Positions 1 through 24,407 of a stretch of DNA of 50,894 nt are shown piece after piece. Position numbers and translations under genes: made by a program. Each line of letters opens with the position of its first letter. Position 1 is the stretch's first letter. Location of the stretch: positions 1 through 50,894 of the IMG/VR virus record IMGVR_UViG_3300027976_000055; one strand, 5' to 3'. The notes beneath the pieces were generated by a model that worked only from the letters and a program-made list of their open reading frames with translations, made no database searches and was not told the origin of the DNA. This DNA comes from a virus.

Positions 1-747
1 CTCATCAGCAAGAACGTTTCTGTGGGCTGCTTCCCAGTGGGCGAGAGTCTTGACTGATGTCTGCACGCCCTCAAACGTCATTGAGGATTGTGGCTTGAGG
101 CCGAATACTGCGGTGCTCGCCGCGCCTGCCACGCCTGCCACGACAGCGCGCTCAGCGACTGACGCTGCATTGTTGGTGAATCCCGTCATGCGGAAGTACT
201 CAATCACGGTTGAAGTCGTGGTGCGAACTGGGAACAGGTCGCGAACACGCTTCGTGCGCTTTGGAGGAACAACGATTGGGTCACGCGTAATTGTGCCAAA
301 GCTGTTTGGGGGACCAGATGGCATTGCGGTGTAAACGTCCTTGACGTTATAGCCTCCACCAAGAGCACCCTTGAACTGGTACGGGGATGGCATGTTTGCA
401 CCATTGAGTCCGTTGTTCAAAGCCTTGAATTCAGCAGACGCAATAAATGCTTCGCCGACTGATGTCAATTGCTGTGTTGGAATTGAATAGCCAGCGGCAG
501 CGGCGGCGGCGACTGACTGACCAGAAGCCTCCGAACCCCACTCCTTGACGCTGTTCATGGCTTCTAGTCCATCAATCAAGCCCTTGAGCTCCTTGATGTC
601 TGTCATGTTTTTGTCAAATGATGCCTTCTGCTTTGCGTTGACGATTACGGTGCCGTTCTCAATTTTGAATGAGTCAGCGATTTCCTTATTGTCCGCCATC
701 TTTGTGCGGAGTGCTCCTTGGAGCTCTTTGAGATTATCTTGCGACAT
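1..747 (-). CDS. Major capsid protein, HK97 fold (N-terminal part, cut by window edge)
   Basis: The first 249 codons are present and the C-terminus lies beyond the left edge. The protein begins MSQDNLKELQGALRTKM. A charged, probably helical N-terminal stretch (about residues 1-65) is followed by an Ala-rich linker (about 80-87) and then the motif pattern of HK97-type capsid subunits, with PPKRTKRVRDLFP and a following segment ending VIEYFR. This is the major building block of the icosahedral shell. The ATG at 747-745 has an AAGGA ribosome binding site eight bases upstream on the minus strand. It is the last gene seen in the minus-strand head block, and a 115-bp AT-rich gap before it suggests its own promoter, as expected for the most abundant virion protein. 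The N-terminal region looks too short for a full HK97 delta (scaffold) domain. The family call is from pattern recognition, not a search. Confidence 0.85.
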   Translation of the reverse strand, partial: MSQDNLKELQGALRTKMADNKEIADSFKIENGTVIVNAKQKASFDKNMTDIKELKGLIDGLEAMNSVKEWGSEASGQSVAAAAAAGYSIPTQQLTSVGEAFIASAEFKALNNGLNGANMPSPYQFKGALGGGYNVKDVYTAMPSGPPNSFGTITRDPIVVPPKRTKRVRDLFPVRTTTSTVIEYFRMTGFTNNAASVAERAVVAGVAGAASTAVFGLKPQSSMTFEGVQTSVKTLAHWEAAHRNVLADE

Positions 748-8000: not shown

Positions 8001-9318
8001 CTAACTTTGTTCCTTCTCTGTATACTGGAACCATTCTGGCTTCGGCTTTAATCTCAAGCGTGCCATCGCCGCCCAGTATGCCGGCGGGCATAATGTATTT
8101 CACCCGCCTGGCCTCATCGGGGTTTGTTGTCCACTTATATATCAGCGCTTCCAAAAGGGCAACCTCGGCCTTCTGAAGCATCTCTACCGTAATCTCGTCT
8201 CGTTCTAATTTGCGCATCAATCTTCGTACTGTTGGGTCGCTGCTTCTGCTATGTAGCTCCCATAATTTTTCTGCCTGAAACAGTCCGTCCGTGTTCACCG
8301 TCCATCCGCCGCCCTCGTTGCCCATTTCGTTTAATTTGGCAAATATTGCCGTTACGTGTTTGCCTTGTTTTTTTTCTTCTGGAGAAAAATTACGTATATT
8401 CAAATCCGACAGTAACTGAGTTATTGTTTCATCTATTATTTCAAGTTTCCTGGCTACGCGCGCAGGTGCATTTAAACGAGATGCCCGCAATCCCTTCTGC
8501 GCCGCGCGAACGGATTCCGACTCTCGGAGTTTGCTGGCCGGCAAAAAACCAACGTCTCCGCGACTGGCGAAACTACTGGATTCAAGCAATTTCTCTAGGT
8601 CTCGTATTCCTTCGGTTGCCAAACCGACCATCTCGGAAAGCGATGTCCCAAAACAGGTGCTTCCTATTTTGTCGGTAAATTGATTAGCCTGAGGTGTCCC
8701 CGGTGGGCATCTAAATTTACCTAAACCGTCAACCAAAACACCGAAGCGCCTCGCTGCGCGTTGGGCCAGACCCCCAGCGGGATTGAGTTCCCTGATGGAC
8801 CTACCGATTGATTTTTCACTGAGGTCGTTGTTTAACGGAAGGCGTTTTTCAACCTTGCTAATTGGCTTGTTATTTTTGTCTACCCTGTATACATCTTTCC
8901 GAACACGGGGCTGCGCGGCGACCCATGCCATATGGTCTTCTGCTGTTGCAAATTTTGGGTCGTCGTCATCAATCCACCCAAAGTTTGGCTTTTTTGAGAA
9001 ACTTAGTCGTTCTGCTTCGGTGGGGAATAATTCCAATTTTTTGCCTGGTCCGCCAGTTGCGGATGGCTCGTATTTCCATCCATCTTCGTTTACTACCCCG
9101 GGCAATTCTTTTTCTTTTTGTTTAGGTGCCCCGGGTGCACTGGCCCCAATGGTATTGTCCATGCCCTTGACCGACATCTCATTACTAAGTGACGGTGATT
9201 TTTGGGCATACAGAATCCCGTTTAGAAATTCATCTACCAAGTACTCGGTGCGTTCTTGCGAGTGGCCGGTGGCCCTTAGCGAGGTGATGAAACGAGTTAC
9301 ATTGCTATGCTGACCCAT
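5029..9318 (-). CDS. Giant multidomain head protein: zincin motif, ADP-ribosyltransferase-like segment, actinophage C-terminal domain
   Basis: A 1429-residue protein. In order: a polar N-terminus; a Cys module FRCPPGTPQANQFTD...STCFG (about residues 200-225) shared with the 662-residue neighbour; one FASRG motif at residue 250; a zincin signature FHEFFHVLQ with HEFFH at 521-525 and a plausible third ligand in TENSEVQKLEMLSEVG; a segment around 790-885 that reads like an ADP-ribosyltransferase core (IRVARG, then SIDSVSSHE, then IVTTTPGTRGIFTT and LIVPPSKLKI), though the usual catalytic Glu pair is unclear; and a C-terminal domain from about 1110 (GFLAHSSHDDRTRSILKRQG, IMGGFGKDDIAEIRYPWSKV, LGFTEEEIAYFYS) of a type I associate with MuF-like proteins of actinophages. 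This set looks like a virion-carried effector or internal head protein. The zincin call is fair; the ART call is weak. It lies 19 bp after the 461-residue gene. Confidence 0.7.
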   Translation of the reverse strand: MGQHSNVTRFITSLRATGHSQERTEYLVDEFLNGILYAQKSPSLSNEMSVKGMDNTIGASAPGAPKQKEKELPGVVNEDGWKYEPSATGGPGKKLELFPTEAERLSFSKKPNFGWIDDDDPKFATAEDHMAWVAAQPRVRKDVYRVDKNNKPISKVEKRLPLNNDLSEKSIGRSIRELNPAGGLAQRAARRFGVLVDGLGKFRCPPGTPQANQFTDKIGSTCFGTSLSEMVGLATEGIRDLEKLLESSSFASRGDVGFLPASKLRESESVRAAQKGLRASRLNAPARVARKLEIIDETITQLLSDLNIRNFSPEEKKQGKHVTAIFAKLNEMGNEGGGWTVNTDGLFQAEKLWELHSRSSDPTVRRLMRKLERDEITVEMLQKAEVALLEALIYKWTTNPDEARRVKYIMPAGILGGDGTLEIKAEARMVPVYREGTKLADIKYAIKYDTQRILSELKKEFTALEKGTSYGFTVEGGGNDLAKAAALLEYLDNARAHYASTAAASQSDDPIRVKAAFVGFHEFFHVLQAEKVIAEVLGNEKLKDRLVSEITAEELMGLMKNVGDGIDISQLGLSDTDNEINRYFGGKYAGSMTENSEVQKLEMLSEVGALREVGVLVGDEIDDALSFYDTPKVQRNRLKSDTDKRSRAELTRNTMHKPQVLVGGKPDVPETPVEDGSPKPSIRTKRPRLLRDEISTIAYIKKQRKNQLQALEPEEVKAVERLLIPEYHQISRLTSSDSNDIQNAVTRINRKNRTLVEMGLEPDQLDMDEATVSQQLERTLIPVLTALDKSELRDSVTIRVARGNDGVNVGDAVSIDSVSSHELLHDDMGVPPGSLIVTTTPGTRGIFTTAKDGDEGAGRLIVPPSKLKITRIDADGTAYAEIVDQDSSRDILAKLQRTWPETSDNPSTLNLLQRQKIEIDKSIDVHNNALRGSSSGILGNGRSHPVAANRVRLNNTKAIDAIRKAGGRPVGIDREYADSVSAGLSSRMTSTFGDIETPVERSVSKSSSAVKVLDGLRSLASNGSPDGMEDIVIGEEVQNILDNYSDNEIVRMLDISAFDLHQGFDRRPRVRFTESGLDKFSSSDGMISPKLSGSRKLVQTEYQARMGIHSDTGNTERPVSGFLAHSSHDDRTRSILKRQGIVAGDAPFEYPGSSTPYGNVGADGDIEILLRPEVSGRTSYGMGRGADNKTRPVWMNSENRQDIADALVHVDDANVRNSKVRVLNALTAYLDDDVSAMNQTKLVKPVRNSASHAQDIDAFDADMSGNQVFGAHIMGGFGKDDIAEIRYPWSKVESASKDVDISDVVNKEPLSSKLQRLGFTEEEIAYFYSLNGDSLGSMNTSAMKQLRAYRASKKIEDKYKKQGIPSVSFAHIYGLDMHSPLSYSVTNSAITKTVDGVLSERITKEIDAELEQALKRLQKTRASVAGLSR
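7744..7758 (-). other. Zincin active-site motif HEFFH
   Basis: Codons for His-Glu-Phe-Phe-His, residues 521-525 of the 1429-residue head protein, inside the phrase VGFHEFFHVLQAEKVIAE. In zincin metalloproteases the two His bind zinc and the Glu activates water. A Glu about 70-85 residues later (TENSEVQKLEMLSE) would fit a third ligand. Protease activity is inferred from this motif alone. Confidence 0.55.
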
Positions 9319-9337
9319 CGTGGGGCTCGTTTCGCCG

Positions 9338-10723
9338 TTAAATGTCGGAGGATTCGTCGCTGATTAGTTGGAACTCAATCAATGATTTTTTAAATTCCTC
9401 GTCAAGTTCCGTAACCATCTCGGATTTACCGCCGATTACCCAGTCCGCAGGAATTAGATTTTCCTGACCGAGGGTATGCGCCCGTTTGATAATATGCTTT
9501 TTGGCCAGCGTCTTATCATCGGCACGGCCGTATGCCTGAATAGCGTTGCGTAAATCCCCCTCGCTCTTAATTGGGAACGAGCCATCAGGGAGCGCATCGC
9601 CAGTTTCTGCCATAACCCTGCGAGCATCTTCAGAAAATGCGCGCTTCAAAGCAATCTCGGCTGCCTCTGCCTCAATCATTTCAATGTCTTCAACTTCGTA
9701 TTTGTCGTAACCAAGAACTTCTCCGTCTAGCGATACAAAGACATCATACGATTTGCCGTTAGGGGATTCAATTTCCACCGCATACGAATCAACTCCCTCA
9801 AAAGAGTCTGGCTCGATGCTGACCACTGTGCCTGGAATACTTTTAGTAGCGATATCGCCAGCTTCGTCAAATGTAACCAACATCAAATCGCTTTTGGTAT
9901 TAATTGCGAATCTGTCGTTAACTCTGTGGCCTTCAATTTGACCAGACGCACCATCAATGAAGATGTCAAAGATTTTTGCATCCTTACGGCGCATTGTCAC
10001 AACAAACATATCTGCCTTGGATACGTATCCAGAATCAACAACTTCGCCCTTAACAAAGGTCTGTGCATAGCCTTCGGCGTGGAGCAATGTAATCTGCCCC
10101 TTTGTCCCCGTGCAACCGCCGGAACAGTCATTGCATGTTTGCGTTCCGGATGGATAAACCTTAGAGTCCATTGCACACTTATATCCGAGATTTCCGACAT
10201 CCGATGACTTAATACCCATTTGGGCCAAACGTTGCTGGCGGAATTTCTCCAGTGTTGCGGTTTCGTCTTCCGGGTCGTCCTCTGATTCGTCTTCGGGGGC
10301 AGGGCTATCGGTTCCTGTCGCGGCGGGGAGTGGTCGCTTCTTTTTCAACGGTGCGACTGGGGCTTCCTCAACTTCATCTTCGTTTTTGTCGTCATATGGG
10401 AGTTCGAGGTACTCATCGTCTTCGGTGCCAGCATCCTCCATGGCGGTGGGTTTGAGTTTTTTTGATTCCAGCACAGATGCGGTTTGGTCTACGCTTTTGC
10501 TGGTGATTTCTGCGGTAAGACGCTCAATCTCTGATTGCATTTGGTTAAACAGGTCAGACGAAAGCATTTTCATTTCTGTCGGCAGGGAACCGCACTTCCC
10601 GCAAACCGCAGATTTTGCTACATATCCGCAATCATCTTTATTGCCGCCCTTGGCGCATTGTAAAACAACACCGTCTGAATCAATGCCGAGGCTAGGCATT
10701 TTGCTTAGGTCTTTAGAGTCCAT
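9338..10723 (-). CDS. Head-region protein: N-terminal zinc-ribbon-like Cys cluster, two PepSY-like repeats, C-terminal DUF6582-like end
   Basis: A 461-residue acidic protein. Cys23, Cys32, Cys41 and Cys44 form a zinc-ribbon-like cluster (CGKCG). A coiled-coil-like stretch (LFNQMQSEIERLTAEI) and an acidic Pro-rich linker follow. A second Cys group (YKCAMDSKVYP, TCNDCSGGC) lies near residues 180-205. Two PepSY-like units follow, one with FDIFIDGASGQIEGHRVND, the other with KSYDVFVSLDGEVLGYDKY. The end (ALPDGSFPIKSEGDLRNAIQ, KHIIKRAHTLG, LIPADW) matches a widespread phage C-terminal domain I know as DUF6582. Its place between the protease fusion and the 1429-residue protein suggests a scaffold or internal head protein. 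A scaffold role would fit the acidic, coiled-coil middle, but the Cys clusters are unusual for one. The ATG has AAGGA upstream. Confidence 0.6.
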   Translation of the reverse strand: MDSKDLSKMPSLGIDSDGVVLQCAKGGNKDDCGYVAKSAVCGKCGSLPTEMKMLSSDLFNQMQSEIERLTAEITSKSVDQTASVLESKKLKPTAMEDAGTEDDEYLELPYDDKNEDEVEEAPVAPLKKKRPLPAATGTDSPAPEDESEDDPEDETATLEKFRQQRLAQMGIKSSDVGNLGYKCAMDSKVYPSGTQTCNDCSGGCTGTKGQITLLHAEGYAQTFVKGEVVDSGYVSKADMFVVTMRRKDAKIFDIFIDGASGQIEGHRVNDRFAINTKSDLMLVTFDEAGDIATKSIPGTVVSIEPDSFEGVDSYAVEIESPNGKSYDVFVSLDGEVLGYDKYEVEDIEMIEAEAAEIALKRAFSEDARRVMAETGDALPDGSFPIKSEGDLRNAIQAYGRADDKTLAKKHIIKRAHTLGQENLIPADWVIGGKSEMVTELDEEFKKSLIEFQLISDESSDI

Positions 10724-10814: not shown

Positions 10815-13800
10815 TTATTGGCGAAATTTATCAAATTCGCCTTTATCAATTCCGAGTCTCTCAAGTAGCGCGTCCATCTGGCTCACGGTGATGGGGAGCC
10901 CGCCAAGACCTTTGCCGCGTTGAAGTTTTGGACCGCTTCCAGAGCGAGGGTCAACCGTGCTATTTACATACCGAGACAGGGTTGCCCTTGACAATTTCTT
11001 ACCCGTAACCTCCTCTAGGGCTGCGTGTAGTTCGCCAAGCGAACTCTTGCCGCCGGTGCGGAATGGCTTAAATGCACGGTGCGCCAGTATCTCTCTGGCA
11101 TCTAGGTCTTGTGGAACTGCAGCGCCGAAGCCCGAACCGTACATTTCTTCAATTTTGGCCGCAATTTTGTTTTTTGACATGTTTGGGTAGTGATTTTTGA
11201 GTAGTCGTTCTACCTGCCCGCGACTCAGCCCTTCGCCCTCAAGGGCTTTTCTCCACTCGGCACGCGATAACACGCCTATCCCCTCAAGCAGTCCTCGTTG
11301 ACCACGATTTCCCTCGTAGTTGATTTCTTCCAACAGCGCATTGATATCGCCGCCCTCGGCTGTGGCTTTGCGTGCTATGCCTCTCCCGCGTGGGCGAGCA
11401 CGTGGGTCGTCTGGGGGATTGTCGGTCGCATTGTCGCCGAACAGTTCGTACAAACGACCCCTGTCCGTAATCGGGTCGCCGGATTCATCAAAATAGGCTG
11501 TCGGGTTATCGGCACCCCAAATTGCTTCTGGTCTGTCCCTACCAATTCGCCGTGCTAGGGCGTCGGCCAAATATGGGTCTCGTATCCGTGCATCCGGTTG
11601 AGTAAGGATTGCTGCTTGGCTTGGGGTTATTCCAAGTTCGGCGGCAATATCCGTATCCTTTTTCAATTCGTATTTCCCACTACTTCCTTGCCTGAAAAAT
11701 CTGGCGAGGGAATTCTCGCGGGCAGTGTCCCAAATTTTAGATAGTGCCCACGACTGACCACCGCCGTCATCGCCAACCCAAATGTCGCCATCGTCTATCT
11801 GGATTTGCCTGCGACCTCGCGATTCGGCAGATACCTGGGAGTCGCCTTCTATCCCGCGAACCGTTAAGTCAACGCCTTTTGGACTACGTTGTTTTTGGGG
11901 TGACAAAACCCCCGCGTCAATTGCGGCTTGCTTTTCCGCATCCACGTCTACCGTGTCATCAAAATTGTAATCGTCTAGCAAGTTTGTTATCTTGCGTGAA
12001 CCAAAACCGTCTTCGTCCTGCGATGGCCCAGGGCGACGTTTTGATGGAACGCGCCTGGCGCGGAGTCTGTCTCCATCAACAAATCTTTGTCTGTCTTCTT
12101 TGCTCCATGCGCGACGCTTGCCCTTTCTGCCTCTTCCGCGTGATGCGAAGCCCTCGTCTTCTCCTAAATATGGTTTTTCACGCTCTAGGAATGCGGTGAA
12201 TAGTTTTCGTAATGGGGGCGAATCCATGCCCGCATCCTCAATGTCCCCCGCATGGAAATTGTAGAAGCTGTCAGTCAGGTCTACGAACCAATCTGGGTGG
12301 TTGCCGTCATCGTCGCGGGTCGTCCATCTGCCGACAGTTTCATTCATCAAATCGTTTGTCATCATGAGTAGTCCGTGGCGTTTAATGGCACCGGGGTCTT
12401 TTTTCTCCATCGCCTTTGTGGGACTACCTGACTTCCACGGGTATTTCTTGCCGTCTTCAAAAAGTTCGGATGCTCTTTCGTATGTGTCTAGCGTCCGTGA
12501 CCCAAACCCAGGCGTCGCCATTTCCGCGACATCTTTGACATCTACTTCCAGTCCGCCCTTATCTTCCGGCTTGAACAACTGTCCCATGTTGGGGGACAGC
12601 CCCATTGCGTAGTTGAATGCCTCTTGCGCCTGCTTCATGGCCCTTGGCAACGCCGTCGGGTCATCGCGTAGTACCCTTAGCCAATTCGCCAAATATGGCG
12701 CGTGATTATCTTGGATGTCTGGCTCAAGCCCGTGGGCGGCAAGGAACATTGATGACGCTATTTCCGCAATCAATTCTTCGTACGCATACTCAGGGCTACC
12801 GAATTGGTTCATGTTTGCGCGCTTTAATCTTTTTTCTCCGCCCGTCCAGTGCATTAATTCATGCGCGACTGTTCCGTAGTACCCTCTAGCGTTTTTGAAA
12901 TCCGAAAACGCCGGGACGACAATAATGTCCTTGGACGGCGAGTAATATGCCCTACTGCCCTCATGATTAAGCACTGGTGCTATTTCGGCTAAGGTTTTTT
13001 CCAAATTATCAATTCGTGTTGCTTCTGGTAGTGCCTCAACCACTCCGTAATCTTCCGGAAGACCATCAACCTCATCGCGGTTGAAAACCCGAATCACCCT
13101 CCACGACATTCCACTGCGCTCTGCTACTTTGCCCGTTGCGGGGTCAAGGGTGCCTTTTTTGTCCTTTGATTTAAACGGAATCGGAACAAAAATTGGCACG
13201 CCTTTAGCGCCCTTGCGCACCTGACCACCGGCTGATTCCCATTGTCCGTATCCGGCCCACTGTTTGCTCTCGTACCCACGCGCAGACCCGATAATCGCCA
13301 GTGTCATAAAGTTAGAACCAGAATAAGGTTTTTTGGTGGTCGGGTTATTTGGCATTGATGTAACGCGCCACGGCATTTTCCAAGATGTTGGGTCGGCTTG
13401 CTCAATGGCTTCAATTAATTGCGCATTGAGGTACTCAAACATTTCATCTTTTGTTTTGATGCCGGTTTCAGAACCATATGTAAATCTGGAACCAAAACCG
13501 TCAGAACCGCTGATTGTAAATTCGTCGCCTACAAGTGTGACTATTGCGCCTTCGGGTAAATCCTTAAATGAGGCTAATGGGTCATCTTTTGGGCGACCAC
13601 CACCGCGGCCCAATTCGTCTCGGGAATTAAATCCACCACCAGCAAGCACTCTGTCAATTTGTTGATTTGCAAATGCAGCCCTGTCGTTACGGCTCATTCC
13701 TGCCCACGCGAGCGCCGGTACGGTTCCGTTGTCTAGGTCATATACAAACCCGTCTGCATCTGTGATTACCCAACGTTGCGCAAGTTCGCCATCGACTGCT

Positions 13801-16800
13801 CGCCCACGACCGCGGCGACCAGCTAGGTATTCAATTCCGAGTCGCTCTAGTGAATCACGAATAGCGTCAAGTTGGTCCATCTGTTCAGCCTGGAACCCGC
13901 GCCCTTCGCGTCGTCGTGGGTTTCCGGTCCCGCTTGGGATAACTGCTTCGGTGACGGCAAGGGCAAAGTTATTAACGGCGTCCCCGTCGTCAAGGTCATT
14001 CTCCATTTGTTCTTGAAGTTTGCTCAATGTGTTGTCGTTATCAATGAGTCTGCCCCGTCGTATGCCGCGTTGCGGATTTCTTCCACGTGAGGCAAAACCG
14101 CTGCGGGCGTCGCCTGCTTCGTCGCGGCCCCTATCTTCTTCAAGGTCAGCGTTTAGGTTTGCCCAATCTTCTGGAGTCCAGTTTGCGCGTTCAGCGGCTA
14201 CTCTTTCACGCTCCCTCGCATCCCTAGTTTCCGCCCGCTTTTTAGCAGTTATCTGAGGCGGAGTGAGTCCGCCTGGACTTTTTGCGCGGCGTGCATCTCG
14301 TCTCGCGTCCATGCGGGCTTGGTATTCTGCTTCGGTAGAAGCATCGTCAAATATGCCATCAATTGGGTCTGGCTTATTGGAATCATCGCGTGAACCAAAA
14401 CCTTCGTAAGCGTGCGCCGGGAGTGCATCGCGGGTTGTGAACTCGTAATCGTCGCGAATGGTCCGAAGAACACCACCACGACTGTCAGCGTTTTCCAAAT
14501 CGCTTACTACAGACTCTGGGACATCGGCGTAGTCGTAGATTTTGCCAGTGCCCTCACCGTTGCGGCCACGGTATTCAACCGATAGAACCCGATTGTCCTT
14601 ATCGTACGCGACTGAATTCAAGGCTTGGCTTGAGGAAACATCAATTTTGCGACCACCCAATCCGGCGGCGTCGGCTTGGCGTTCTAGCGATGCCATCTCT
14701 CTGTCGTCGAGTGCGCGTCGTTTGGCGGCTTCTACAAGGTCGTCTGCTGACTCGCCAGAACCGTTGCTTATTGCGTGGTCCGTTACCCTCTTGAGATAAC
14801 TGATTTGGTGTTCTGGTTTTAGTCTATTCCAGATTGAATCAAGTTGATTTTTTTCCATTTCTTGAGCGACATCTGAACCTTCGCGCGCGAACCTATTTCC
14901 CCTGTCTCCCTCATCGGCCCGTCGGAAAGAGTGCGTGCGCTTAATGTCATTAATAGCACGACCCTTGCTGGTGTTGTCGCGGAATTCGGCGAGGTCGTCT
15001 TGAGTTACACCCTCGTAAATGTAGATTCTTCCACCGGGATACATGACAATCAGTTCTGATACCTCTGGGTCGTAATAGGCATCTTCAAGAGCACTTGAAC
15101 CAGATACATCAACAACTTCTATTGAGGAATAATCTGGCTGAGCGCCCCTGCTGGCGAAATCGTCACCACCGGAACCCATGTATGACGCGCGGTCATCTTC
15201 GTAACCGGGAGAATCCATGTACGCTGTTTCTAGTGCGCTGACAAATTCCTCAATGCTACCCAAGTCCCCCAAATCATCGCTGTATTCATCGTCATCGGCT
15301 AAATTGATATATTGTCTTTTTTCTTCAGTGCTTAGGCTGTTCCAGTTATCGAGAATTGTTTTGGCACGGCGATTATATTGTTGTGGCAGAGGTCCATCGG
15401 CATTACGACCTCCAGTTTCAAGTTCATCCATGTGTTGCGCTATTTGACCTTCGCCAAAAGGAGAATACTTTTTTGACCCCGTGCCGCGCGAGGCGAAACT
15501 GTCATCATCTCCGCCACTAAACGAATAAAGGTCGGTCGGATAGGCCTCACTCCATTCACTTTCCTCCGGGGCGCTGACCATTTCGTAGTTGCGGAATGCC
15601 TCATTCCTGCGATACTGTTCCTCGGCTTGGTCCGTAAGTTGGCTGACTATCGCGTCAACTTCGTCACTAAGTTTATCTATGTCATCAGGGGATTTCGCGT
15701 TGCGAATCTTCTTATCGAGTTCGTCAATTTGTGCGATTTGCTCTGAATTTATATAGTCATAGTCGTTAAGTGTCTCATTATCGTTATCGTCAAGCGGCAT
15801 GTTCGTAACCATGTCACGAGCGCCGAGAAGATGAGACGACATTTCATCCCTCATTGAGTCTATTTGTTCTTCGTGTGTTGCTCCCCACTTTGGGTGGTCT
15901 AGGTCAGTGTCAACATTCGCCCTTCCGTGCTTCTGCAACTCGCTCCAGATTCCCGATGAGTGTTCTTCTCTGTCTCTCGCCAACTGTTGGTCTGCGCGGT
16001 ACTTATCAAGTACATCATCAGCGGCTTGGATTGCAGACCCATACTCGTCTAGCAGGGTCCAATCATCGTCATCGCCGGCCGCAATTTGCTCAATGATGTC
16101 GTAATTACGCGAGTTTTTACCGCGCGGTGGACCGTTGTATCCATTTGCCGTCCCCATCTCATCAGCGGCGCGGTTGCGTGCTTCAATTAATTGTTTGCGG
16201 TATTCAAGAAGTCCGTCAAGACCGCGTTGTGCATTGTCGGCATCATTTAGTTCGGTGAGTTCGTAACCGCGCTTGCGGAAACGAGACGGGTCTTCAATAA
16301 GATTGCGTGACTCATCAAGCATTTCGGCAGTTGAACGGCGTGCACCACGCGAGGCCAAGCCCTCACGATTTGCCCGCTCCGTGAATGCATCTCTGTCAAG
16401 GTCAAGAGGTTCTTCGTCCTTGAAAAACGGCAATTTATCATCGTCCGGGTATTTATCGGCAAGCCAAGCATCAACGATGTCTCTGTATTCCGATATTACG
16501 TCTTTACCGTTATTCTGGTCACTGGACATTTGTCTAATAAGGTCGCGTTCAGCTTCGTTCCATTTATCTCGCCGACTACCAGTTGTTCCGTAGCTCATAA
16601 CCCGTTCGTTGAGTGCATCCCAAACATTGTCATCGCTGACGGGCAGGCTAGTAATCCCGCCCTCTTCTAAGAGGTTGCTGAATTCATCGTAATGTTGTTT
16701 GTCAAATCTGTTACCAGGAGACGTGTTGCCACGTGAGGCGAAACCGCCGCCGTCTTTATCATAAGCGGCTTCTGCGAGTTCTTCTGCAATTTCGGTCAGG

Positions 16801-19800
16801 CGGGGACTATCCATCCTGTCGGTCATCTCGTCGTCGGGCCACCCCTCGTCAAAGAGTTCCTCAAACCGAATTCGTTCTGCTTCCTCAAACTGGCTCTCTG
16901 TTAAGTTCCAGCGCTCATCGCTAGATAGGTCGTCCCATTTTTTCTTGCCACGTGAGGCGAAACCCTCGCCTGCATTATCAAAGCGTTCAAGTATTTCTAG
17001 TGCCTCATAAATTTGAGACGATTCAACATTCGTGACATTTTTGACGAGTTCCTCTACATAAAGTATGTTGCCGTTTTTCTGGAATGGATTACCTTCGTCA
17101 GCCCCTTCTGCACGCAAAGCATCAACCCTTGCAAGAATTTCCTCGGCTATCGCACTGCGCTCTTTCTGCGCTATCCGATTCCACTCTTCCTCCGCGGCAT
17201 CCGAATCATGGTTCCGATTACTTGGGGGTAGTCCTCCGAACTCTTCGTAATAGTCCTGCAACCAATCGCGTTGTGTGTCGCGGTCAAGTTCGTTAAAGTC
17301 AAGTATATTTTCGTCGATTTGGATGCTCTCGCGTGAGGCAAAACCATCATCGTCTGCGCCGTAATATTTGCCCGTTTGCTTGTCAACCAATTTGTTAATA
17401 GCCGAACCGCTTAGGGCTGGCTCCCAGAAAGTTTTGTTGTCATCGCTTAGGTATTCTGGTCTCAGGGAAGCGTTGTAGGCGGTTTCACCGACATCTTCGG
17501 CATAAACATCGTTCCATTGTGCGAGAACACGGTTCTTACCCTTGTCCTTGCCGCTATTTATAATCTTTTCTGCGCGCACGTAATAAGTATCAGCGCCGCC
17601 GTTATATCCAACAATTACCTGTTGGTCCTTGTTGACAGGAAGAACCATTTCATTGCCACGCATCTTTGTGCGCCCGCCAGAAATTGCCCCGAGATTTCCT
17701 CGGCCGATTTGGCTTAGTGTTTCCCGGGTGTTGAATTCACTTGGCTCATCGCCGTACGGTGTCGGCCACTGTTCCGTTGATGCACGTGAACCGAAACTAT
17801 CGTAGCGGCTACGCCCACCCCTACGTTCTACGACCTCCATCAAATCGTCGTAGTCCGCAGCATCGGTTACTCGATTGAAATAATCGCGGAAAGCCTTCTC
17901 CATTTCTGGATTAGAAAATGCATCCCGTGTATTTATTTTGTCAACGTATGAACGGAATTCGGCAACGCGCTTTTCTGCAAGCGCCCTATCCGTAGTTTTG
18001 TAGTCAGGGCGCTTATTATGGAGTTCTTCCATATAACCCAGGTCGGTCTCATCGGCGGCATTAAGAATGCCAAGTTCACCGCCGGAGAAATAACGCGTTA
18101 GAAATTCATCCTCCGATTCACGTAGAACCGAACCGTTTCCGTCATAAACTCTGTCAAAAAAGTATTCCTCGTAGTCGTCATTATTAAAATCATAGTCATC
18201 TGGTGGCTCGTCATAAGCGCGACCAAAGCCACGTGAACCGAAACCGCCGTCGTATTCCTCCGGGTTATCAGCGAGATACTGCCCAACATCATCGGGGTCA
18301 ACGGATGCATCCAGCCAATCCTGGTACGCCTGTTCGTATTTATCTGGATTTTTCTTTCTTTCAAGATTGGCACGGTACGAACGCCGTCGACCCTCTTCAA
18401 GATACGATTGGAACTCAGCGATGCGCTTTTCTACAAGCGCCCTATCCGTGGTTTTGTAGTCGGGGCGCTTATCAAATAGCACTTCCATGTAAGGGTCGGA
18501 TTCAGTATCCAGTGGTGCAATCCCCGTGCCAAGTTGACCACCAGAGAAGTAACGCGTTAGGAACTCATTTTCTCCGTCATCCATACCGTAGACATTATTC
18601 TCAAAGTAATCGTCCATGTCGTCATCAGTTACTTCTACTTCGTCGTAGTCGGGCGGCTCAAAATAACTTTGCGGGGGCATACCATCGCCGCGCGAAGCAA
18701 GACCTTCATCGGCCTTGCGGAAGGTGTGCGTTTTCTTGATTCTGTTGATTGCCGCGCCCTTGCTCTTGGCAGTATTCAGGTCATCAAAATCGTCTTCGGT
18801 CACGCCCTCGTAAACGTAGGTTCCGCCGCCACGGTACTTAACCGTCAGTTCCTGGTCGCGGTCGTTCCATGATGCTTTTTCCAAAGCAGAACTGCGTGAG
18901 ACATCAATCTTTTCGGTGCGCCCATCTGCGAGTTTGTCGGCTCGTTGTTCACTGAGGACAACCTCGTGGTCGTATCTTTCGGCCCAACTCTGAGCGGCTT
19001 CCCTGCTCGTGAATGTCGGTGATTCTTCTATTTCATCAAACCCGGGTCCATCGGCATAACTGTTTGTGCGCTTGCCGACACGGACATTGAACTCGCCGCC
19101 GTAGCTTATTTCTTGAATTTCGTACGATAACCCAGAGCCACTCTCTATTGTGTTGTCGTCTGGGTCCGCTGAAGCCCAGTCCAACGATGGCGCTGATTCT
19201 CTGGTTTCAACCTCATCGGCATTGGCTTTACGGAATGCTTTGGTGCGCTTGATTTCATTAATTGCACGACCCTTAGACGGAGCACTGTCAAATGCATCCG
19301 CATCTGCTTGTGTTACACCTTCGTAAATATATGTTCCGCCCGGTTCTCCGTCGGGCCCGTTGTAGGTAACTACAAGCTCCTGAGCGCCCGAATCGTAATG
19401 GGCGGAAGCAAGAGCCTTGCTATCCGCGACATCTATTGGTTCAATGGGGGACTTCGCCTTTGGCGGGCTCGTAATCTTGTCAATGGTTTCTGGGCGGGCT
19501 TTTTCTACATCGTGCTTGCCCTTAATTTTGTTAATTTCTCTGCCCTTAGAGTTTGAATCGTGAAGTGCATCAACTTCTTTTTGGGTTACCCCTGAATATG
19601 TGTACCAACTTGTTGGGCCATCCGTGCGCTTAAAACCGACATGCAATTCTTGGTTTTGGGCATCGTAGTGAGCGCCGTCAAGTGCCCCGCTGAACTCTGT
19701 GTCAATTTTATCAAACGGCGTTGTATCAGTGCGTGAACCAAGACCCTCATCTGGTTCGTAATTCGTCAAAGATTTTTCGTACTTATCAATCATTTGTGTA

Positions 19801-22319
19801 ATATGGTCCGGAAGGGTTGCCGTGCGGACATTACCCTCATCGTTTGCGTTGTGGTAATCAACTATGCTCTGGGCTTCGTTGCGCACCATGTTGTTGAAGT
19901 CTGCGTGGTCCTCGTCATTCATTCTCAAAATTCGGGACCTATTGTTCTTGTCGTCCATGAAGCTTGAACGCAGTGCTTGGGCCACCATATTGCGCTCTAA
20001 GTCGGGGTGTTGCGCTCTTAGAATTTCACCCCACGAGCTCTTTTTGCCAGCTGAAGCAAATCCGTCGTCTGGTTCTACATCTGCAATGTTGGCTTCAATC
20101 CAGGCATCGGCGATGTCGGGGTAGTGGAAAGATGGGTCGTCTGCTGATTGGACATCTCCCAGCAACGAGGCAATGGCTTCCTCGCGCATGTATTCGATAT
20201 AGAAGGGGGATGACGTAAGGTGACGGTCCTTGGGGGCAATATTCGCCGCTGCTTCTTCTATGAAATCCGAAATCCGGTCTTCATGTTCATCGGTCATTGG
20301 CAATTCGCTCAAGTCACGGACCGCATCGTTGAATGCGTTGTACGTGTCAATGCTGTACTTGGGTTTATCATCGCCACGTGAAGCAAAATCGTCACCATCA
20401 AGAAGTGAGGCACCCCCATCATCTTCGTCAAGACTGTCTCGGTAATTGTCGTCATCGTCTAGGGCGTCCTCTTCCTCCTGGTCGAGTTCGGCGCGCAGTT
20501 TGCGGGCGGCAATGGTTTCGGGTTTCGTTACTGGCTTCGGAGCATCTTCCCGTACCGGCGACTTTGTGGGAGCGGCTGCACTCTTTGGTGGAACAAACTT
20601 TTTGCCGAATTGCTGTTCATAGGAAGTTCTACGGGCAAACTCATGCGAGACCTTATATAATTCGGTATCAACGGCATCACGACCCTCGGCGCCAGTTGAG
20701 CGACGGGTGCTAAGTAACCTTTGACCCGCAAGATTTAATTCAGAATCGTTCATGTCCCAGTACTTGGCAAGACCAGCGTTTAGTGGTCGCCTGTCAGCAA
20801 GGAACATCATGTCTTCGCGCGTCCGTGGCTGTAGTGTCCCGGCAGCCAATGCCCTTTGACGCGGTTGACCAGCGAGTGTTGCGGGGTCAACGGTTGATTT
20901 TGGACCCGTGTCTATTGTTGGCTTGTCCAGTAACTCCGTGGCATTGCGTTTCTTCCCGCCGACATCAGGTAGGTCAACATTGGGTTTCTTGATGGGGATG
21001 TAAGGGCGCATGAATGCAGTGTTGTCTTGCGCGAAACCGTCAGCATCACCGTCAATTGCATTGGGGTTGAATCCTTGCGCTATTGTCCGCAATGTTCCAG
21101 CGGTCTGTCCGATTGTTTGACCAATGGCCTTAACTGCTGTCTGAAGTGCATCCATCGCTTGCGCGGACACAACGCCGTTGATACCAATTCCCTTATCGGA
21201 CGTGTATGTCTCCAGTTTGTGATATTGAAAAACCGGTTCCAACATTGATAGTGCATCCTTAATGGCATATTGCGGTAACTCAATCAAGTGTGTAACGGCA
21301 GATTTCCCGTACGATGAACTAACAGCATCAAGCAACGAACTCATTTCGTCTTCGTCATCATTTCTGTATGCCGCACCCGCATTTGGCACAACGACTAATT
21401 CGTCTGGGTTTGGCTTTGTCACGATGTTTTGCTCTACTTCTGGTTTTACGACAGATGTATAGGCCTCTGGTTTGCCAAACATAAATGTTTCATAATTATC
21501 TGGCGTGTGATAGCCAACTCTGAATGTTGATGTTTTTCCGCTGTCCTCGGTGCGCTTGAAAATCAACGAACCTTCCGTTGCTGAAATAATTTCTACTTGT
21601 GAGTTGGTCCGCTCTGACAGTTCTTGCTGAATTTTACCCTGCTGCTCCTTTGAAAGTTTTTGAGCCAGTCCTTCCGAGAAAATATCCTCTTCTCCGTTTT
21701 CTTCGCCTTCCGTAGACGCTGGCACTGCAATAATGCGGGGCATCTGTTCTGGTGAAATCATCCGCAGCATGCTGGCGAACGGATTCCCCGTCACTAATGG
21801 GGTCTCCTCGGCGTGTTTGATGGAAATTGTGCCAGTTAGGTGATTGGCCCCATGGAGCACGGGAGAAACCTCGTAAAGTTCAACCTCTTTAAGCACATTT
21901 GCTTGCAGATTGGCATCAAAAATTGAGTCAAGTGTCTTATAACCAATTGACCATTCTTGGTCTTCGCCGAAAAAAGCGACGCTTGCAAATGCTTCTTTGC
22001 CTTTTTCGGAGTTAAGGTTAAACTGGACTTTTGCATACAGTCCGCCTACGCCGGCATCTCTCATTTTGGCTGGAAGGCGCGGGTCGCCCAGTGGAACTTC
22101 GTACATTTCAAGAACTTTGCCGATTGGGTCGTTCCAACTGTGACCCCACACGACTCTTGGCTTGCGCCTGGTGAGGCTTTTGGCAAACGCACCACTGATT
22201 ACGATGTCACCAACGGAATCCTTATTGCCGATACCGGCTACGAAACACTCAACAATCCCCGTGGCTTCGTCAATGTTGACCTGACCAGTTCCAGATTTGT
22301 ATTTTATTTCTTGATTCAT
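10815..22319 (-). CDS. Giant prohead protease polyprotein with FASRG-punctuated modules, five KTSC domains and an ArdC antirestriction unit
   Basis: One uninterrupted frame of 3834 residues; HK97-type prohead proteases are usually near 200 residues. Residues 1-170 are the protease: VVWGHSWNDPIGKV with His60, EWSIGYK with Ser124, then a Glu-rich strand before VSPVLHGAN. Around residue 420 there is NPNAIDGDADGF, a Ca-loop-like sequence. From residue 645 to 3439 a short motif, D/G-x-F-A/G-S-R-G, recurs 19 times plus one degenerate copy (FAREG, residue 2477) and divides the protein into modules. KTSC domains lie at about 872-941, 962-1032, 1138-1203, 2402-2468 and 2553-2625. An ArdC-like unit spans about 2947-3265. 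The C-terminal 395 residues are basic, with helix-turn-helix-like stretches (DIAAELGITPSQAAIL; KLSRATLSRYVNSTV). The protease should mature the head. Cutting of its own modules and their ejection with DNA are hypotheses. The start has only a weak GGTGA site upstream. Confidence 0.9.
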   Translation of the reverse strand: MNQEIKYKSGTGQVNIDEATGIVECFVAGIGNKDSVGDIVISGAFAKSLTRRKPRVVWGHSWNDPIGKVLEMYEVPLGDPRLPAKMRDAGVGGLYAKVQFNLNSEKGKEAFASVAFFGEDQEWSIGYKTLDSIFDANLQANVLKEVELYEVSPVLHGANHLTGTISIKHAEETPLVTGNPFASMLRMISPEQMPRIIAVPASTEGEENGEEDIFSEGLAQKLSKEQQGKIQQELSERTNSQVEIISATEGSLIFKRTEDSGKTSTFRVGYHTPDNYETFMFGKPEAYTSVVKPEVEQNIVTKPNPDELVVVPNAGAAYRNDDEDEMSSLLDAVSSSYGKSAVTHLIELPQYAIKDALSMLEPVFQYHKLETYTSDKGIGINGVVSAQAMDALQTAVKAIGQTIGQTAGTLRTIAQGFNPNAIDGDADGFAQDNTAFMRPYIPIKKPNVDLPDVGGKKRNATELLDKPTIDTGPKSTVDPATLAGQPRQRALAAGTLQPRTREDMMFLADRRPLNAGLAKYWDMNDSELNLAGQRLLSTRRSTGAEGRDAVDTELYKVSHEFARRTSYEQQFGKKFVPPKSAAAPTKSPVREDAPKPVTKPETIAARKLRAELDQEEEDALDDDDNYRDSLDEDDGGASLLDGDDFASRGDDKPKYSIDTYNAFNDAVRDLSELPMTDEHEDRISDFIEEAAANIAPKDRHLTSSPFYIEYMREEAIASLLGDVQSADDPSFHYPDIADAWIEANIADVEPDDGFASAGKKSSWGEILRAQHPDLERNMVAQALRSSFMDDKNNRSRILRMNDEDHADFNNMVRNEAQSIVDYHNANDEGNVRTATLPDHITQMIDKYEKSLTNYEPDEGLGSRTDTTPFDKIDTEFSGALDGAHYDAQNQELHVGFKRTDGPTSWYTYSGVTQKEVDALHDSNSKGREINKIKGKHDVEKARPETIDKITSPPKAKSPIEPIDVADSKALASAHYDSGAQELVVTYNGPDGEPGGTYIYEGVTQADADAFDSAPSKGRAINEIKRTKAFRKANADEVETRESAPSLDWASADPDDNTIESGSGLSYEIQEISYGGEFNVRVGKRTNSYADGPGFDEIEESPTFTSREAAQSWAERYDHEVVLSEQRADKLADGRTEKIDVSRSSALEKASWNDRDQELTVKYRGGGTYVYEGVTEDDFDDLNTAKSKGAAINRIKKTHTFRKADEGLASRGDGMPPQSYFEPPDYDEVEVTDDDMDDYFENNVYGMDDGENEFLTRYFSGGQLGTGIAPLDTESDPYMEVLFDKRPDYKTTDRALVEKRIAEFQSYLEEGRRRSYRANLERKKNPDKYEQAYQDWLDASVDPDDVGQYLADNPEEYDGGFGSRGFGRAYDEPPDDYDFNNDDYEEYFFDRVYDGNGSVLRESEDEFLTRYFSGGELGILNAADETDLGYMEELHNKRPDYKTTDRALAEKRVAEFRSYVDKINTRDAFSNPEMEKAFRDYFNRVTDAADYDDLMEVVERRGGRSRYDSFGSRASTEQWPTPYGDEPSEFNTRETLSQIGRGNLGAISGGRTKMRGNEMVLPVNKDQQVIVGYNGGADTYYVRAEKIINSGKDKGKNRVLAQWNDVYAEDVGETAYNASLRPEYLSDDNKTFWEPALSGSAINKLVDKQTGKYYGADDDGFASRESIQIDENILDFNELDRDTQRDWLQDYYEEFGGLPPSNRNHDSDAAEEEWNRIAQKERSAIAEEILARVDALRAEGADEGNPFQKNGNILYVEELVKNVTNVESSQIYEALEILERFDNAGEGFASRGKKKWDDLSSDERWNLTESQFEEAERIRFEELFDEGWPDDEMTDRMDSPRLTEIAEELAEAAYDKDGGGFASRGNTSPGNRFDKQHYDEFSNLLEEGGITSLPVSDDNVWDALNERVMSYGTTGSRRDKWNEAERDLIRQMSSDQNNGKDVISEYRDIVDAWLADKYPDDDKLPFFKDEEPLDLDRDAFTERANREGLASRGARRSTAEMLDESRNLIEDPSRFRKRGYELTELNDADNAQRGLDGLLEYRKQLIEARNRAADEMGTANGYNGPPRGKNSRNYDIIEQIAAGDDDDWTLLDEYGSAIQAADDVLDKYRADQQLARDREEHSSGIWSELQKHGRANVDTDLDHPKWGATHEEQIDSMRDEMSSHLLGARDMVTNMPLDDNDNETLNDYDYINSEQIAQIDELDKKIRNAKSPDDIDKLSDEVDAIVSQLTDQAEEQYRRNEAFRNYEMVSAPEESEWSEAYPTDLYSFSGGDDDSFASRGTGSKKYSPFGEGQIAQHMDELETGGRNADGPLPQQYNRRAKTILDNWNSLSTEEKRQYINLADDDEYSDDLGDLGSIEEFVSALETAYMDSPGYEDDRASYMGSGGDDFASRGAQPDYSSIEVVDVSGSSALEDAYYDPEVSELIVMYPGGRIYIYEGVTQDDLAEFRDNTSKGRAINDIKRTHSFRRADEGDRGNRFAREGSDVAQEMEKNQLDSIWNRLKPEHQISYLKRVTDHAISNGSGESADDLVEAAKRRALDDREMASLERQADAAGLGGRKIDVSSSQALNSVAYDKDNRVLSVEYRGRNGEGTGKIYDYADVPESVVSDLENADSRGGVLRTIRDDYEFTTRDALPAHAYEGFGSRDDSNKPDPIDGIFDDASTEAEYQARMDARRDARRAKSPGGLTPPQITAKKRAETRDARERERVAAERANWTPEDWANLNADLEEDRGRDEAGDARSGFASRGRNPQRGIRRGRLIDNDNTLSKLQEQMENDLDDGDAVNNFALAVTEAVIPSGTGNPRRREGRGFQAEQMDQLDAIRDSLERLGIEYLAGRRGRGRAVDGELAQRWVITDADGFVYDLDNGTVPALAWAGMSRNDRAAFANQQIDRVLAGGGFNSRDELGRGGGRPKDDPLASFKDLPEGAIVTLVGDEFTISGSDGFGSRFTYGSETGIKTKDEMFEYLNAQLIEAIEQADPTSWKMPWRVTSMPNNPTTKKPYSGSNFMTLAIIGSARGYESKQWAGYGQWESAGGQVRKGAKGVPIFVPIPFKSKDKKGTLDPATGKVAERSGMSWRVIRVFNRDEVDGLPEDYGVVEALPEATRIDNLEKTLAEIAPVLNHEGSRAYYSPSKDIIVVPAFSDFKNARGYYGTVAHELMHWTGGEKRLKRANMNQFGSPEYAYEELIAEIASSMFLAAHGLEPDIQDNHAPYLANWLRVLRDDPTALPRAMKQAQEAFNYAMGLSPNMGQLFKPEDKGGLEVDVKDVAEMATPGFGSRTLDTYERASELFEDGKKYPWKSGSPTKAMEKKDPGAIKRHGLLMMTNDLMNETVGRWTTRDDDGNHPDWFVDLTDSFYNFHAGDIEDAGMDSPPLRKLFTAFLEREKPYLGEDEGFASRGRGRKGKRRAWSKEDRQRFVDGDRLRARRVPSKRRPGPSQDEDGFGSRKITNLLDDYNFDDTVDVDAEKQAAIDAGVLSPQKQRSPKGVDLTVRGIEGDSQVSAESRGRRQIQIDDGDIWVGDDGGGQSWALSKIWDTARENSLARFFRQGSSGKYELKKDTDIAAELGITPSQAAILTQPDARIRDPYLADALARRIGRDRPEAIWGADNPTAYFDESGDPITDRGRLYELFGDNATDNPPDDPRARPRGRGIARKATAEGGDINALLEEINYEGNRGQRGLLEGIGVLSRAEWRKALEGEGLSRGQVERLLKNHYPNMSKNKIAAKIEEMYGSGFGAAVPQDLDAREILAHRAFKPFRTGGKSSLGELHAALEEVTGKKLSRATLSRYVNSTVDPRSGSGPKLQRGKGLGGLPITVSQMDALLERLGIDKGEFDKFRQ
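12525..13481 (-). other. ArdC-like antirestriction unit embedded in the polyprotein
   Basis: Residues about 2947-3265. The first half matches the ArdC N-terminal (ssDNA-binding) domain: KMPWRVTSMPNNPTTKKPYS, NFMTLAIIGSARGYESKQW, QVRKGAKGVPIFVPIPFKSK. The second half is its zincin partner: GYYGTVAHELMHWTGGEKRL with HELMH at 3153-3157 (12849-12863), then YAYEELIAEIASSMF giving the third ligand. ArdC proteins of conjugative plasmids protect incoming DNA from restriction. FASRG-type motifs at residue 2942 and residue 3272 bracket the unit almost exactly, so cutting there would release an intact ArdC of about 330 residues. Confidence 0.82.
14445..19706 (-). repeat. Five KTSC domains within the polyprotein
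   Basis: Positions are about 19706-19497, 19436-19224, 18908-18711, 15116-14916 and 14663-14445. Each copy has the KTSC pattern: an Ser-Ala-Leu start (SSALEKASWN, SKALASAHYD), a beta pair with a Gly (ELTVKYRGGGTYVYEGV), then a Ser-Lys/Arg-Gly turn (AKSKGAAINRIKKT). Copies 1 and 2 are adjacent. Copies 3 and 4 end in nearly the same way (TFRKADEG, SFRRADEG) and run straight into a FASRG-type or degenerate motif. The KTSC family has no firmly known role. The copies differ widely in sequence, so they are old duplications. Confidence 0.8.
17870..18665 (-). repeat. Duplicated ~100-residue module within the polyprotein
   Basis: Two consecutive modules (residues 1207-1360 and 1360-1509) share the run EFLTRYFSGG and then KRPDYKTTDRAL, followed by EKRIAEFQSY or EKRVAEFRSY. 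At DNA level a nearly identical block of about 49 bases occurs near 17969-18017 and again near 18425-18473. Each module begins after a FASRG-type motif. This shows whole modules being copied with the motif as border. Confidence 0.75.
21770..22319 (-). other. Prohead protease domain of the polyprotein
   Basis: This part encodes residues 1-183. It follows the S78/U35 caudoviral prohead protease layout: an early beta-strand region ending VAGIGNKDSVGDIVISGAF, the His-bearing strand WGHSWNDPIGKV (His60), the nucleophile strand WSIGYK (Ser124) and the closing VELYEVSPVLHGANHLTGT. All expected core elements are present, so the domain is probably active. Confidence 0.88.
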
Positions 22320-22400
22320 TTGTCACCATTCGTTAAGGCTGTTTTAAATAGTAAGCCAAAATTGGTGAGCGCCAACGCAACTAATGCGATTTGTTCAAGT

Positions 22401-22426
22401 GTTTCACTATATGGATATAATGAAAC
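22401..22426. promoter_or_regulatory. 26-bp near-perfect palindrome between portal and protease genes
   Basis: GTTTCACTATAT, two bases, then ATATAATGAAAC. The two 12-base arms are inverted copies with a single G-T mismatch. It touches the portal stop codon and lies in the 106-bp gap before the giant protease gene. The AT-rich arms, the two-base loop and the lack of a T-run argue against a normal terminator. An operator or an mRNA processing hairpin is possible. Confidence 0.35.
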
Positions 22427-24405
22427 TAAATGGTTTGCTCCCATGCCTGTCGTGCCTCGTTGGCAACAACCTGGAATCTAACCTTGCCTAATACATTTGT
22501 GAATATTTCAACTATCTCGTTCCTAAAGTACTCATGACGGGCCTCTTCCCCGGAAACCGATGTCGCCCTAGTAATAGCGCTTCGGATTTGTGACTGTGTG
22601 TCCGTATTTATTTCTTTGATATTGAGCATATGGGTGTTGGCTTTCGCAAAAACCTCCGTTGCATCAACGGGCATTTGTTGCATCTCCATTGAATCCCTGA
22701 TGATTGCGGATAGAACGGGTTTGATGTCCTCGTCCATTTGTTTTCCCCAAACATCTATGCCGAAAATTGACTCTATGTCAAGGGTCCCAGCAAATAGCGC
22801 TTTTCTGGATTTAGCGCCTGCCGATTTTTCCGTAACCACTCGTTGCTGTCTTTCCAGAACCCGTTCAAGTGACCTGTCTAGGATTTGAGTCCACCGTTCA
22901 AGGGCATTTTCCATTTCTTCACTCTTGAACGACATCGGGCCGGATGCGACCGCCAACCCTGGCGGCGTTGGCTCAATTGCCGTCTCGGGGGCACCACCCG
23001 CAACCCCGGATGCTGCGGCAGCAAGTGCACCCGCCATGGTGCTGGGGTCAGGCGCCCCTTCTGTTGGTGGCAGGGCATCTGATGGCATTCCCGGTGGAGC
23101 CTCTGGTGGCATTCCAGGAGGAGGCGCACCGCCCTCTCCGCCCATCATCACTGGCGGTTCTTCCATCTTTTTCTTTGTGTTTGCAATTGGGGTTAGATTC
23201 GGGTTCATTAACAATGAATCCGCAAGGTCGGCATCTACTTCTTTTCTTCCGCTGGCAAGCCGATATTCGTTGACACTTATGAGACCCTGAGACAATTCAT
23301 CTTTTGAGTATCTTTCACGTTCCTGTTTGTAGAGTTGCAATACGGGGACCTCGCTTAAATCAAAGTCCACATAATTGTCGGGGTCAAGTTCGTCCAGGGC
23401 GCGAGCGAGTGGCTCAAGATGGGGCAACATTGTTTCCATCCAGAACACTCGGATTTCCTCGGCCGCATTGCTAAATGTTCTACCGGCCGCATTTCCAATA
23501 ACCGTTTCTGGCACGCCGAACGATGCGAGAATTTCCTCTTTGGTAATTTGCCGCATTTGAATATAAGCGGCATCTCGTGGTGATGCACTGGTGTCAACGT
23601 AATCGGCGCCATCGTCCGCAGAGAGAACCGTTGTCGTGCCCGTGTGTGCCAAATTACCTCTAAATCGATTCTTTAACTCATTCTTGTCGTCATCGCTGAT
23701 TTCGCCCTTGACCACGAGTATCCCGCCTGGGCGGCCATCGTTCATTAAAAAATTACGGTTGTAGAGTTTTGCAAAGGTCTCAATTTCAATGGCAATACCA
23801 GCCGACTCCATTGGGGTAAGTGAGAGATACGGGTCAAGCGGGTGAGGTCTGCGTACCCACACGACATCCTCCGGCCTCATGACGATTACCCCGCCGTTTG
23901 GCATTGTTACTTCATATCCGGAGACAAATTTCTTGGCATCAGGGATTGGCGCGGTGTGCTGCGGGGGGAGAAGGTTCAGTCCTATAATCTCGCCGTTGCG
24001 ACCCCGTACCTTTTCAATGAATGCGCCGCGCGTACCAAGCAGTAATTGGGATGAAAGCCGATAACGAAAGATGAATGAGTTTTCGCCAATGTTTGATTTG
24101 GTATTTAGAACCTCAAGAAGCGATGATTTCTTGGCGTTTTTGCGTGAGATTATTTCGCCATCGGGAGAGTTATCTTTTCGTAGCATGATGGGCAGGCGGG
24201 CCTGGTTGCCAGCAATGGCATCAATGCATCTTGCAACCCATGTAACTCGTTGCATCCCTTCTCTGTATGCACGTTCAATGTCCCATGAGTCCGTGTACGC
24301 CTTGCCAGCCAACCCCATGTTTTGTGCGATGGGCGCGCCAGGCCCAATCAGGGACTTTAGTGCCGATGGACCGAGGCCCTTGTTCCTAGACGAGTTCCAT
24401 GCCAT
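22426..24405 (-). CDS. Portal protein, HK97 family, with long C-terminal extension
   Basis: A 659-residue protein forming the ring at the capsid vertex through which DNA enters and leaves. The family core spans about residues 25-400: RVTWVARCIDAIAGNQARLP, then FRYRLSSQLLLGTRGAFIEK, LLPPQHTAPIPD, EDVVWVRRPHPLDPY, the phrase GRPGGILVVKGE, and FGVPETVIGNAAGRTFSNAA. A Pro/Gly/Met-rich linker (about 420-485) leads to a helical C-terminal domain (ERVLERQQRVVTEKSAGAKS, SIFGIDVWGKQMDEDIKPVL), which resembles C-terminal extensions of actinophage portals and may take part of a MuF-like role. It follows the small membrane protein by two bases and lacks a clear ribosome binding site, so translational coupling is likely. 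Confidence 0.92.
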   Translation of the reverse strand: MAWNSSRNKGLGPSALKSLIGPGAPIAQNMGLAGKAYTDSWDIERAYREGMQRVTWVARCIDAIAGNQARLPIMLRKDNSPDGEIISRKNAKKSSLLEVLNTKSNIGENSFIFRYRLSSQLLLGTRGAFIEKVRGRNGEIIGLNLLPPQHTAPIPDAKKFVSGYEVTMPNGGVIVMRPEDVVWVRRPHPLDPYLSLTPMESAGIAIEIETFAKLYNRNFLMNDGRPGGILVVKGEISDDDKNELKNRFRGNLAHTGTTTVLSADDGADYVDTSASPRDAAYIQMRQITKEEILASFGVPETVIGNAAGRTFSNAAEEIRVFWMETMLPHLEPLARALDELDPDNYVDFDLSEVPVLQLYKQERERYSKDELSQGLISVNEYRLASGRKEVDADLADSLLMNPNLTPIANTKKKMEEPPVMMGGEGGAPPPGMPPEAPPGMPSDALPPTEGAPDPSTMAGALAAAASGVAGGAPETAIEPTPPGLAVASGPMSFKSEEMENALERWTQILDRSLERVLERQQRVVTEKSAGAKSRKALFAGTLDIESIFGIDVWGKQMDEDIKPVLSAIIRDSMEMQQMPVDATEVFAKANTHMLNIKEINTDTQSQIRSAITRATSVSGEEARHEYFRNEIVEIFTNVLGKVRFQVVANEARQAWEQTI

Positions 24406-24407
24406 AT

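Follow-up and report, generated by a model that had tools for sequence, protein, structure and literature searches.

Why would a virus place a prohead protease at the start of a protein thousands of residues long? The question is raised by one reading frame, P0001, in the 50,894-nucleotide stretch of viral DNA analysed here (hereafter, the window). A sequence-only reading of the window had described an open frame of 3834 residues and proposed a protease-headed polyprotein with FASRG-type cleavage sites. The length is correct. The frame starts with ATG, spans positions 10815-22319 exactly, and lies on the minus strand, a point on which that reading was silent. The protease is followed by some 3,600 residues of further modules. 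Features of the window are listed in Table 1.

A protease-led chain between portal and capsid genes

Fusions homologous to P0001, between 3772 and 5494 residues long (including examples of 3918, 3987 and 4307), are present in independent virus contigs. Hence, an assembly artefact, or a fluke of the reading frame, is ruled out as the source of P0001. Nor is P0001 unique, or the largest such fusion (5494 residues). We conclude that fusions of this type are real, widespread and, at the level of sequence, well supported as protease-led polyproteins.

The N-terminal domain had been called an HK97-type prohead protease (S78), and we agree. Residues 21-165 match PF04586 with E=5e-9 (37 bits, compared to a cut-off of 21), and phrog_3244, a head maturation protease, also matches this region. 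The NCBIfam equivalog TIGR01543 (proheadase_HK97) scores 43 bits, which is under its cut-off of 59. Residues H60 and S124 (QEWSIGY) are unchanged across 16 relatives, and in alignments S124 falls on the serine that HK97 gp4 and isolate-phage proteases conserve. The significant profile match, together with the conserved catalytic histidine and serine, indicates membership of the S78 family. Position agrees: P0001 lies between the portal gene, upstream, and the major capsid protein gene, which shares its strand and follows downstream after several others. HK97 gp4 shares the domain match, the conserved catalytic residues and this location. However, gp4 has about 225 residues, whereas the P0001 protease is trailed by about 3,600 residues of other modules. 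In several relatives, the S78 domain retains a V-K-S string at its end. A PDB sequence search with the S78 domain gave no significant match. The AlphaFold model of the N-terminal 700 residues was poor (mean pLDDT 49) and was not carried into a fold search. Note that most relatives encode a protein of similar size at the position occupied here by the PepSY-domain protein.

Table 1. Coordinates of features in the window, with residue positions in the encoded protein.
Feature	Residues	Position	Strand	Remarks
P0001, putative S78-headed polyprotein gene	3834 aa	10815..22319	-	
Conserved N-terminal unit	1-644	20388..22319	-	protease and ~450 aa common to other long fusions
HK97-type prohead protease domain S78	21-165	21825..22259	-	PF04586; H60 and S124 invariant
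Motif FASR	645	20376..20387	-	end of N-terminal unit
Motif LGSR	860	19731..19742	-	
KTSC-region copy (further)	1134-1201	18717..18920	-	phrog_3292
Motif LASR	1207	18690..18701	-	
Motif FGSR	1360	18231..18242	-	between look-alike modules 1210-1362 and 1363-1511
Motif FGSR	1509	17784..17795	-	
Motif FASR	1660	17331..17342	-	
Motif FASR	1787	16950..16961	-	
Motif FASR	1860	16731..16742	-	
Motif LASR	1988	16347..16358	-	
Motif FASR	2275	15486..15497	-	
Motif FASR	2388	15147..15158	-	
KTSC domain	2563-2616	14472..14633	-	best of five
Motif FGSR	2641	14388..14399	-	
Motif FASR	2742	14085..14096	-	
Motif FNSR	2897	13620..13631	-	
Motif FGSR	2942	13485..13496	-	directly before ArdC-MPTase module
ArdC-N, ArdC N-terminal antirestriction domain	2962-3079	13083..13436	-	
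MPTase-PolyVal zincin domain	3105-3228	12636..13007	-	
Motif FGSR	3272	12495..12506	-	directly after ArdC-MPTase module
Motif FASR	3391	12138..12149	-	
Motif FGSR	3439	11994..12005	-	
P0002, second giant late protein	1429 aa	5029..9318	-	probable trans substrate
Motif FASR(G) of P0002, single	250	8560..8571	-	shortly past conserved RCPPG...CF stretch
Portal protein		22426..24405	-	
PepSY-domain protein		9338..10723	-	between fusion and P0002 gene
Major capsid protein		1..747	-	cut by window edge

A repeated motif between modules

A protein-family search of the modules, which the sequence-only reading had suggested, gave five KTSC domains, ArdC-N and MPTase-PolyVal in addition to S78. Between modules, P0001 carries 18 motifs of the form [FL][AGN]SR. 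All but one fit [FL][AG]SR, the eighteenth being FNSR. The count of 17 compares with a mean of 0.33 after shuffling (maximum 4 in 2000 shuffles). Similarly, F.SR occurs 16 times, where shuffling predicts 0.64 (maximum 5). Acidic and glycine residues precede most of the 18 sites. The adjacent, look-alike modules at residues 1210-1362 and 1363-1511, read directly from the translation, are apparent duplicates, and a motif ends each. DNA encoding the motif varies, with 15 distinct 12-mers among the 18 sites and comparable codon variety in three relatives (G014, G001 and G015). Hence, selection acts on the peptide and not on the DNA. With AlphaFold, all eight motif sites modelled were in low-pLDDT stretches adjoining confidently folded domains, and the ArdC-MPTase module was confidently folded between two such sites; the low pLDDT may stem from shallow alignments (9-16 rows). 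Elsewhere in the window, a FASRS string in a RuvC-like resolvase (28925-29452, plus strand) was judged to be a chance match.

A protease-domain scan of viral contigs found at least 599 relatives. At 95 loci examined, the S78 chain reached at least 900 residues in 80 cases and at least 2000 in 31, as far as the contigs extend. We cut P0001 at its motifs, mapped the pieces onto other late proteins by sequence search, and asked how far each mapped end was from the nearest motif. Across 8 other chains, 37 of 58 module ends were within 10 residues of a motif, compared to a mean of 5.9, and a maximum of 17, for random placement (2000 trials). Some of the far-off ends result from KTSC repeats that match several places. 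The piece containing ArdC and MPTase illustrates that their order differs between chains. It starts at residues 926-1011 in three relatives (G002-G004), at residues 2730-3254 in four others (G001, G005, G006 and G016), and in G014 it lies in a different gene, of 1030 residues, as the C-terminal piece. Whatever its position, a motif lies 4-14 residues upstream in 8/8 chains. These comparisons show that modules are exchanged between phages as motif-bordered cassettes. A 949-residue protein of G014, used as a query, retrieved its own contig only. One relative (L010) has a DUF2958 domain as a module, at residues 1430-1500 of the fusion.

Polyproteins of eukaryotic RNA viruses have an embedded protease, repeated cleavage sites, and modules freed from one chain. 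P0001 seems to be built on similar lines, with an embedded protease and a repeated signal at module borders. Unlike those polyproteins, to which it has no homology, P0001 would be late head cargo of a DNA phage, and its cleavage is predicted.

Lineage-private versions of the signal in separate proteins

With no motif assumed, the top over-represented tetrapeptide was of G-phi-x-S type in nearly every S78 chain of at least 2000 residues. The variants differ by lineage: GFAS/FASR, GFASR, LGSR, GLSS/LSSG, GLSSG, GMAS, FAST, GFSS, FSSS, GLAS and GLAST. Each lineage holds its own version of the common core. The residue after the serine can be R, G, S, T or even L; hence, the scissile bond is not fixed. 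In short fusions (about 1000-1290 residues), the S78 chain itself is mostly without a strong motif.

The private string of a genome recurs in its other late proteins. LSSG occurs 12 times in the S78 chain of G014 and 10 times in other late proteins; the equivalent counts are 2 and 17 for LRSS in G015, and 2 and 8 for LAS[ST] in G022. All three strings are rare elsewhere. When S78 chains and late proteins were paired by contig, they shared more than shuffled pairs (p=0.0012), with the signal coming mostly from four contigs. It is as if one enzyme reads the private motif both in cis and in trans. P0002 provides an example. Among its homologues the motif occurs once, in a shared position behind the RCPPG...CF stretch, and in the dialect of each genome (FASRG in the window, FGSR in G006, GLSSG in G014 and LRSSG in G015), although some homologues are without it. 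P0002 also has a HEFFH zincin-like motif that Pfam does not recognise. A late giant protein of G022 (L138) contains an RNase_T exonuclease domain.

The capsid protein is the normal substrate of S78 prohead proteases, and served as a positive control. This substrate appears not to carry the same signal: in the window and in most relatives the capsid protein was without the private motif, and had loose phi-x-S strings only. Loose phi-x-S or phi-x-small strings are found near the HK97 cleavage position. In HK97 and isolate relatives, K-S strings are common to the protease and the capsid protein. These include the HK97 K103-S104 site, the residues of which were checked here. Hence, S78 may have two types of site, or may cut the capsid protein at a looser one.

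Competing readings and known systems

We favour, with a probability of roughly 0.7, the reading that P0001 is a head-targeted polyvalent polyprotein cut by S78 at G-phi-x-S(-R) linkers, in cis and in trans; cleavage, cutter, prohead entry and injection are steps that we infer. The chain would enter the prohead. The N-terminal S78 protease would cut its own chain at the linkers, giving about 18-19 proteins. It would also recognise its private signal in other giant late proteins of the phage, P0002 for instance, and cut them in trans. The modules released (ArdC-like antirestriction, KTSC and others) would be injected with the DNA. Packaging and ejection are suggested by gene position and by the known behaviour of polyvalent proteins. 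Points against this reading are the capsid protein without the private motif, the variable residue after the serine, and the short fusions in which the S78 chain mostly has no strong motif. The protease-headed polyprotein of the sequence-only reading thus stands at the sequence level, on the strength of motifs at module ends, shuffling, concerted letter changes and S78 as the constant partner. Its signal needs revision, being not FASRG as such; the core is G-phi-x-S, is private to each lineage, and is apparently also read in trans.

The cutter could instead be the embedded zincin MPTase, or P0002 as an HExxH protein, with S78 fused for delivery or capsid maturation only. MPTase-PolyVal is indeed present in the P0001 chain, P0002 has its HEFFH motif, and Iyer et al. 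proposed MPTase self-processing for polyvalent proteins (PMC5512222). However, among 25 contigs, MPTase-PolyVal was found in 11 and S78 in 25/25, though the latter is by construction since the contigs were chosen by S78. In G014, the S78 chain has the motif even though the MPTase is in another gene. Furthermore, three contigs, all incomplete, keep the private motif with no detectable MPTase (G008, 132 kb; G015, 67 kb; G022, 136 kb), which points to S78. Hence, S78 is favoured over MPTase as the probable cutter; incomplete contigs and HEFFH in P0002 leave this short of proof. We consider a zincin cutter quite unlikely.

It may also be that nothing is cut. The motif could serve a chain that is packaged in one piece, either as a tag for docking or loading, recognised by capsid, scaffold or portal, or as a spacer between modules. 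Cleavage is, after all, deduced here from sequence, the capsid protein is without the private motif, and two polyvalent proteins, N4 vRNAP and ArdC of pSa, are delivered whole according to PMC5512222. Conversely, a single tag per chain would be enough for loading, and location at module ends, with letters that change together in separate proteins, suits a protease better. We consider an uncut motif unlikely. Far less credible is an origin of the motif in module shuffling, as a trace left where short DNA repeats recombined, with no role for the peptide. Modules clearly do shuffle and duplicate, but the site codons differ, as described above, and the peptide is common to different late proteins of one genome.

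How does an S78-cut polyprotein relate to known systems? Iyer et al. 2017 describe polyvalent proteins, with ArdC-N and MPTase, that are thought to be injected, and compare them to RNA-virus polyproteins (PMC5512222). P0001 resembles these in being very long, in having ArdC-N, MPTase and other conflict domains, and in being encoded in the packaging/head region. With such unlike domains in one chain, encoded alongside virion packaging genes, P0001 can be classed provisionally as a polyvalent protein. However, for polyvalent proteins the zincin MPTase was proposed to do the cutting, and assemblin-like peptidases are noted at C-termini only, whereas P0001 is led by S78. In the text of PMC5512222 consulted here, no repeated lineage-private cleavage signal is described. 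In phage SPN3US, a single short motif, AXE, marks the sites at which the prohead protease gp245 processes itself and many head and injected proteins (PMC10052503). In contrast to P0001, the substrates in SPN3US/phiKZ-type phages are encoded by separate genes, the parts removed are mostly N-terminal propeptides, the motif is another, and there is no cis-fused cargo polyprotein (PMC10052503). Phage P1 packages Dar antirestriction proteins in its head, and the P1 prohead protease trims DarA; Dar proteins differ from P0001 in being separate, with one propeptide cut (PMC12810830). The sequence-only reading knew of no description of such a system, but polyvalent cargo, the polyprotein analogy, and protease trimming of injected proteins all have precedents (PMC5512222, PMC10052503, PMC12810830). 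An open-access literature search gave no account of a cargo polyprotein that is led by S78 and has lineage-private sites, and a cis-fused S78 polyprotein of this kind appears to be new relative to that literature.

A wider proposal, to which we give slightly less than even odds, is that phages of a large, uncultured clade produce their injected cargo as RNA-virus-like polyproteins with the head protease in front. This protease and its cleavage signal would drift together into a private dialect for each lineage, read in cis and trans, and any module gaining end signals would become head cargo. If true, phages would have a plug-in arrangement by which the effectors that they inject are shuffled, and there would be a concrete, testable rule by which one gene loads and releases many different early-infection proteins. 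Packaged and injected proteins of metagenomic phages could be listed by means of the private motif, the module cassettes would be a source of uncharacterised anti-host domains, and the lineages would represent many natural replicates of protease-substrate co-evolution.

The nearest isolates are phages of Gordonia, Brevibacterium and Streptomyces, with S78 proteins of 36-41% identity and no repeated FASR motif in those proteins. A genome scan for the host gave only MAG contigs (Gammaproteobacteria and Phycisphaerae) and a distant Sinosporangium locus; our guess, from the hosts of the nearest isolates, is an actinobacterium. Gilgamesh, a Streptomyces phage (L086), encodes a 4624-residue protein of unassigned function near its S78 gene (gp48, 11979-25853), in which no comparable repeated motif was found. 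Isolates from all three host genera (L084, L082, L083, L086 and L087) have repeated E-x-K-S-like strings in the capsid delta region and the S78 protein, which recall K103-S104 of HK97 (L167). In the capsid protein of DalanDe, a Gordonia phage (L084), EIKS occurs 4 times compared to an expectation of 0.004. The DalanDe protein gp27 (5632-10533; 1633 residues) has long extensions both before and after its protease domain.
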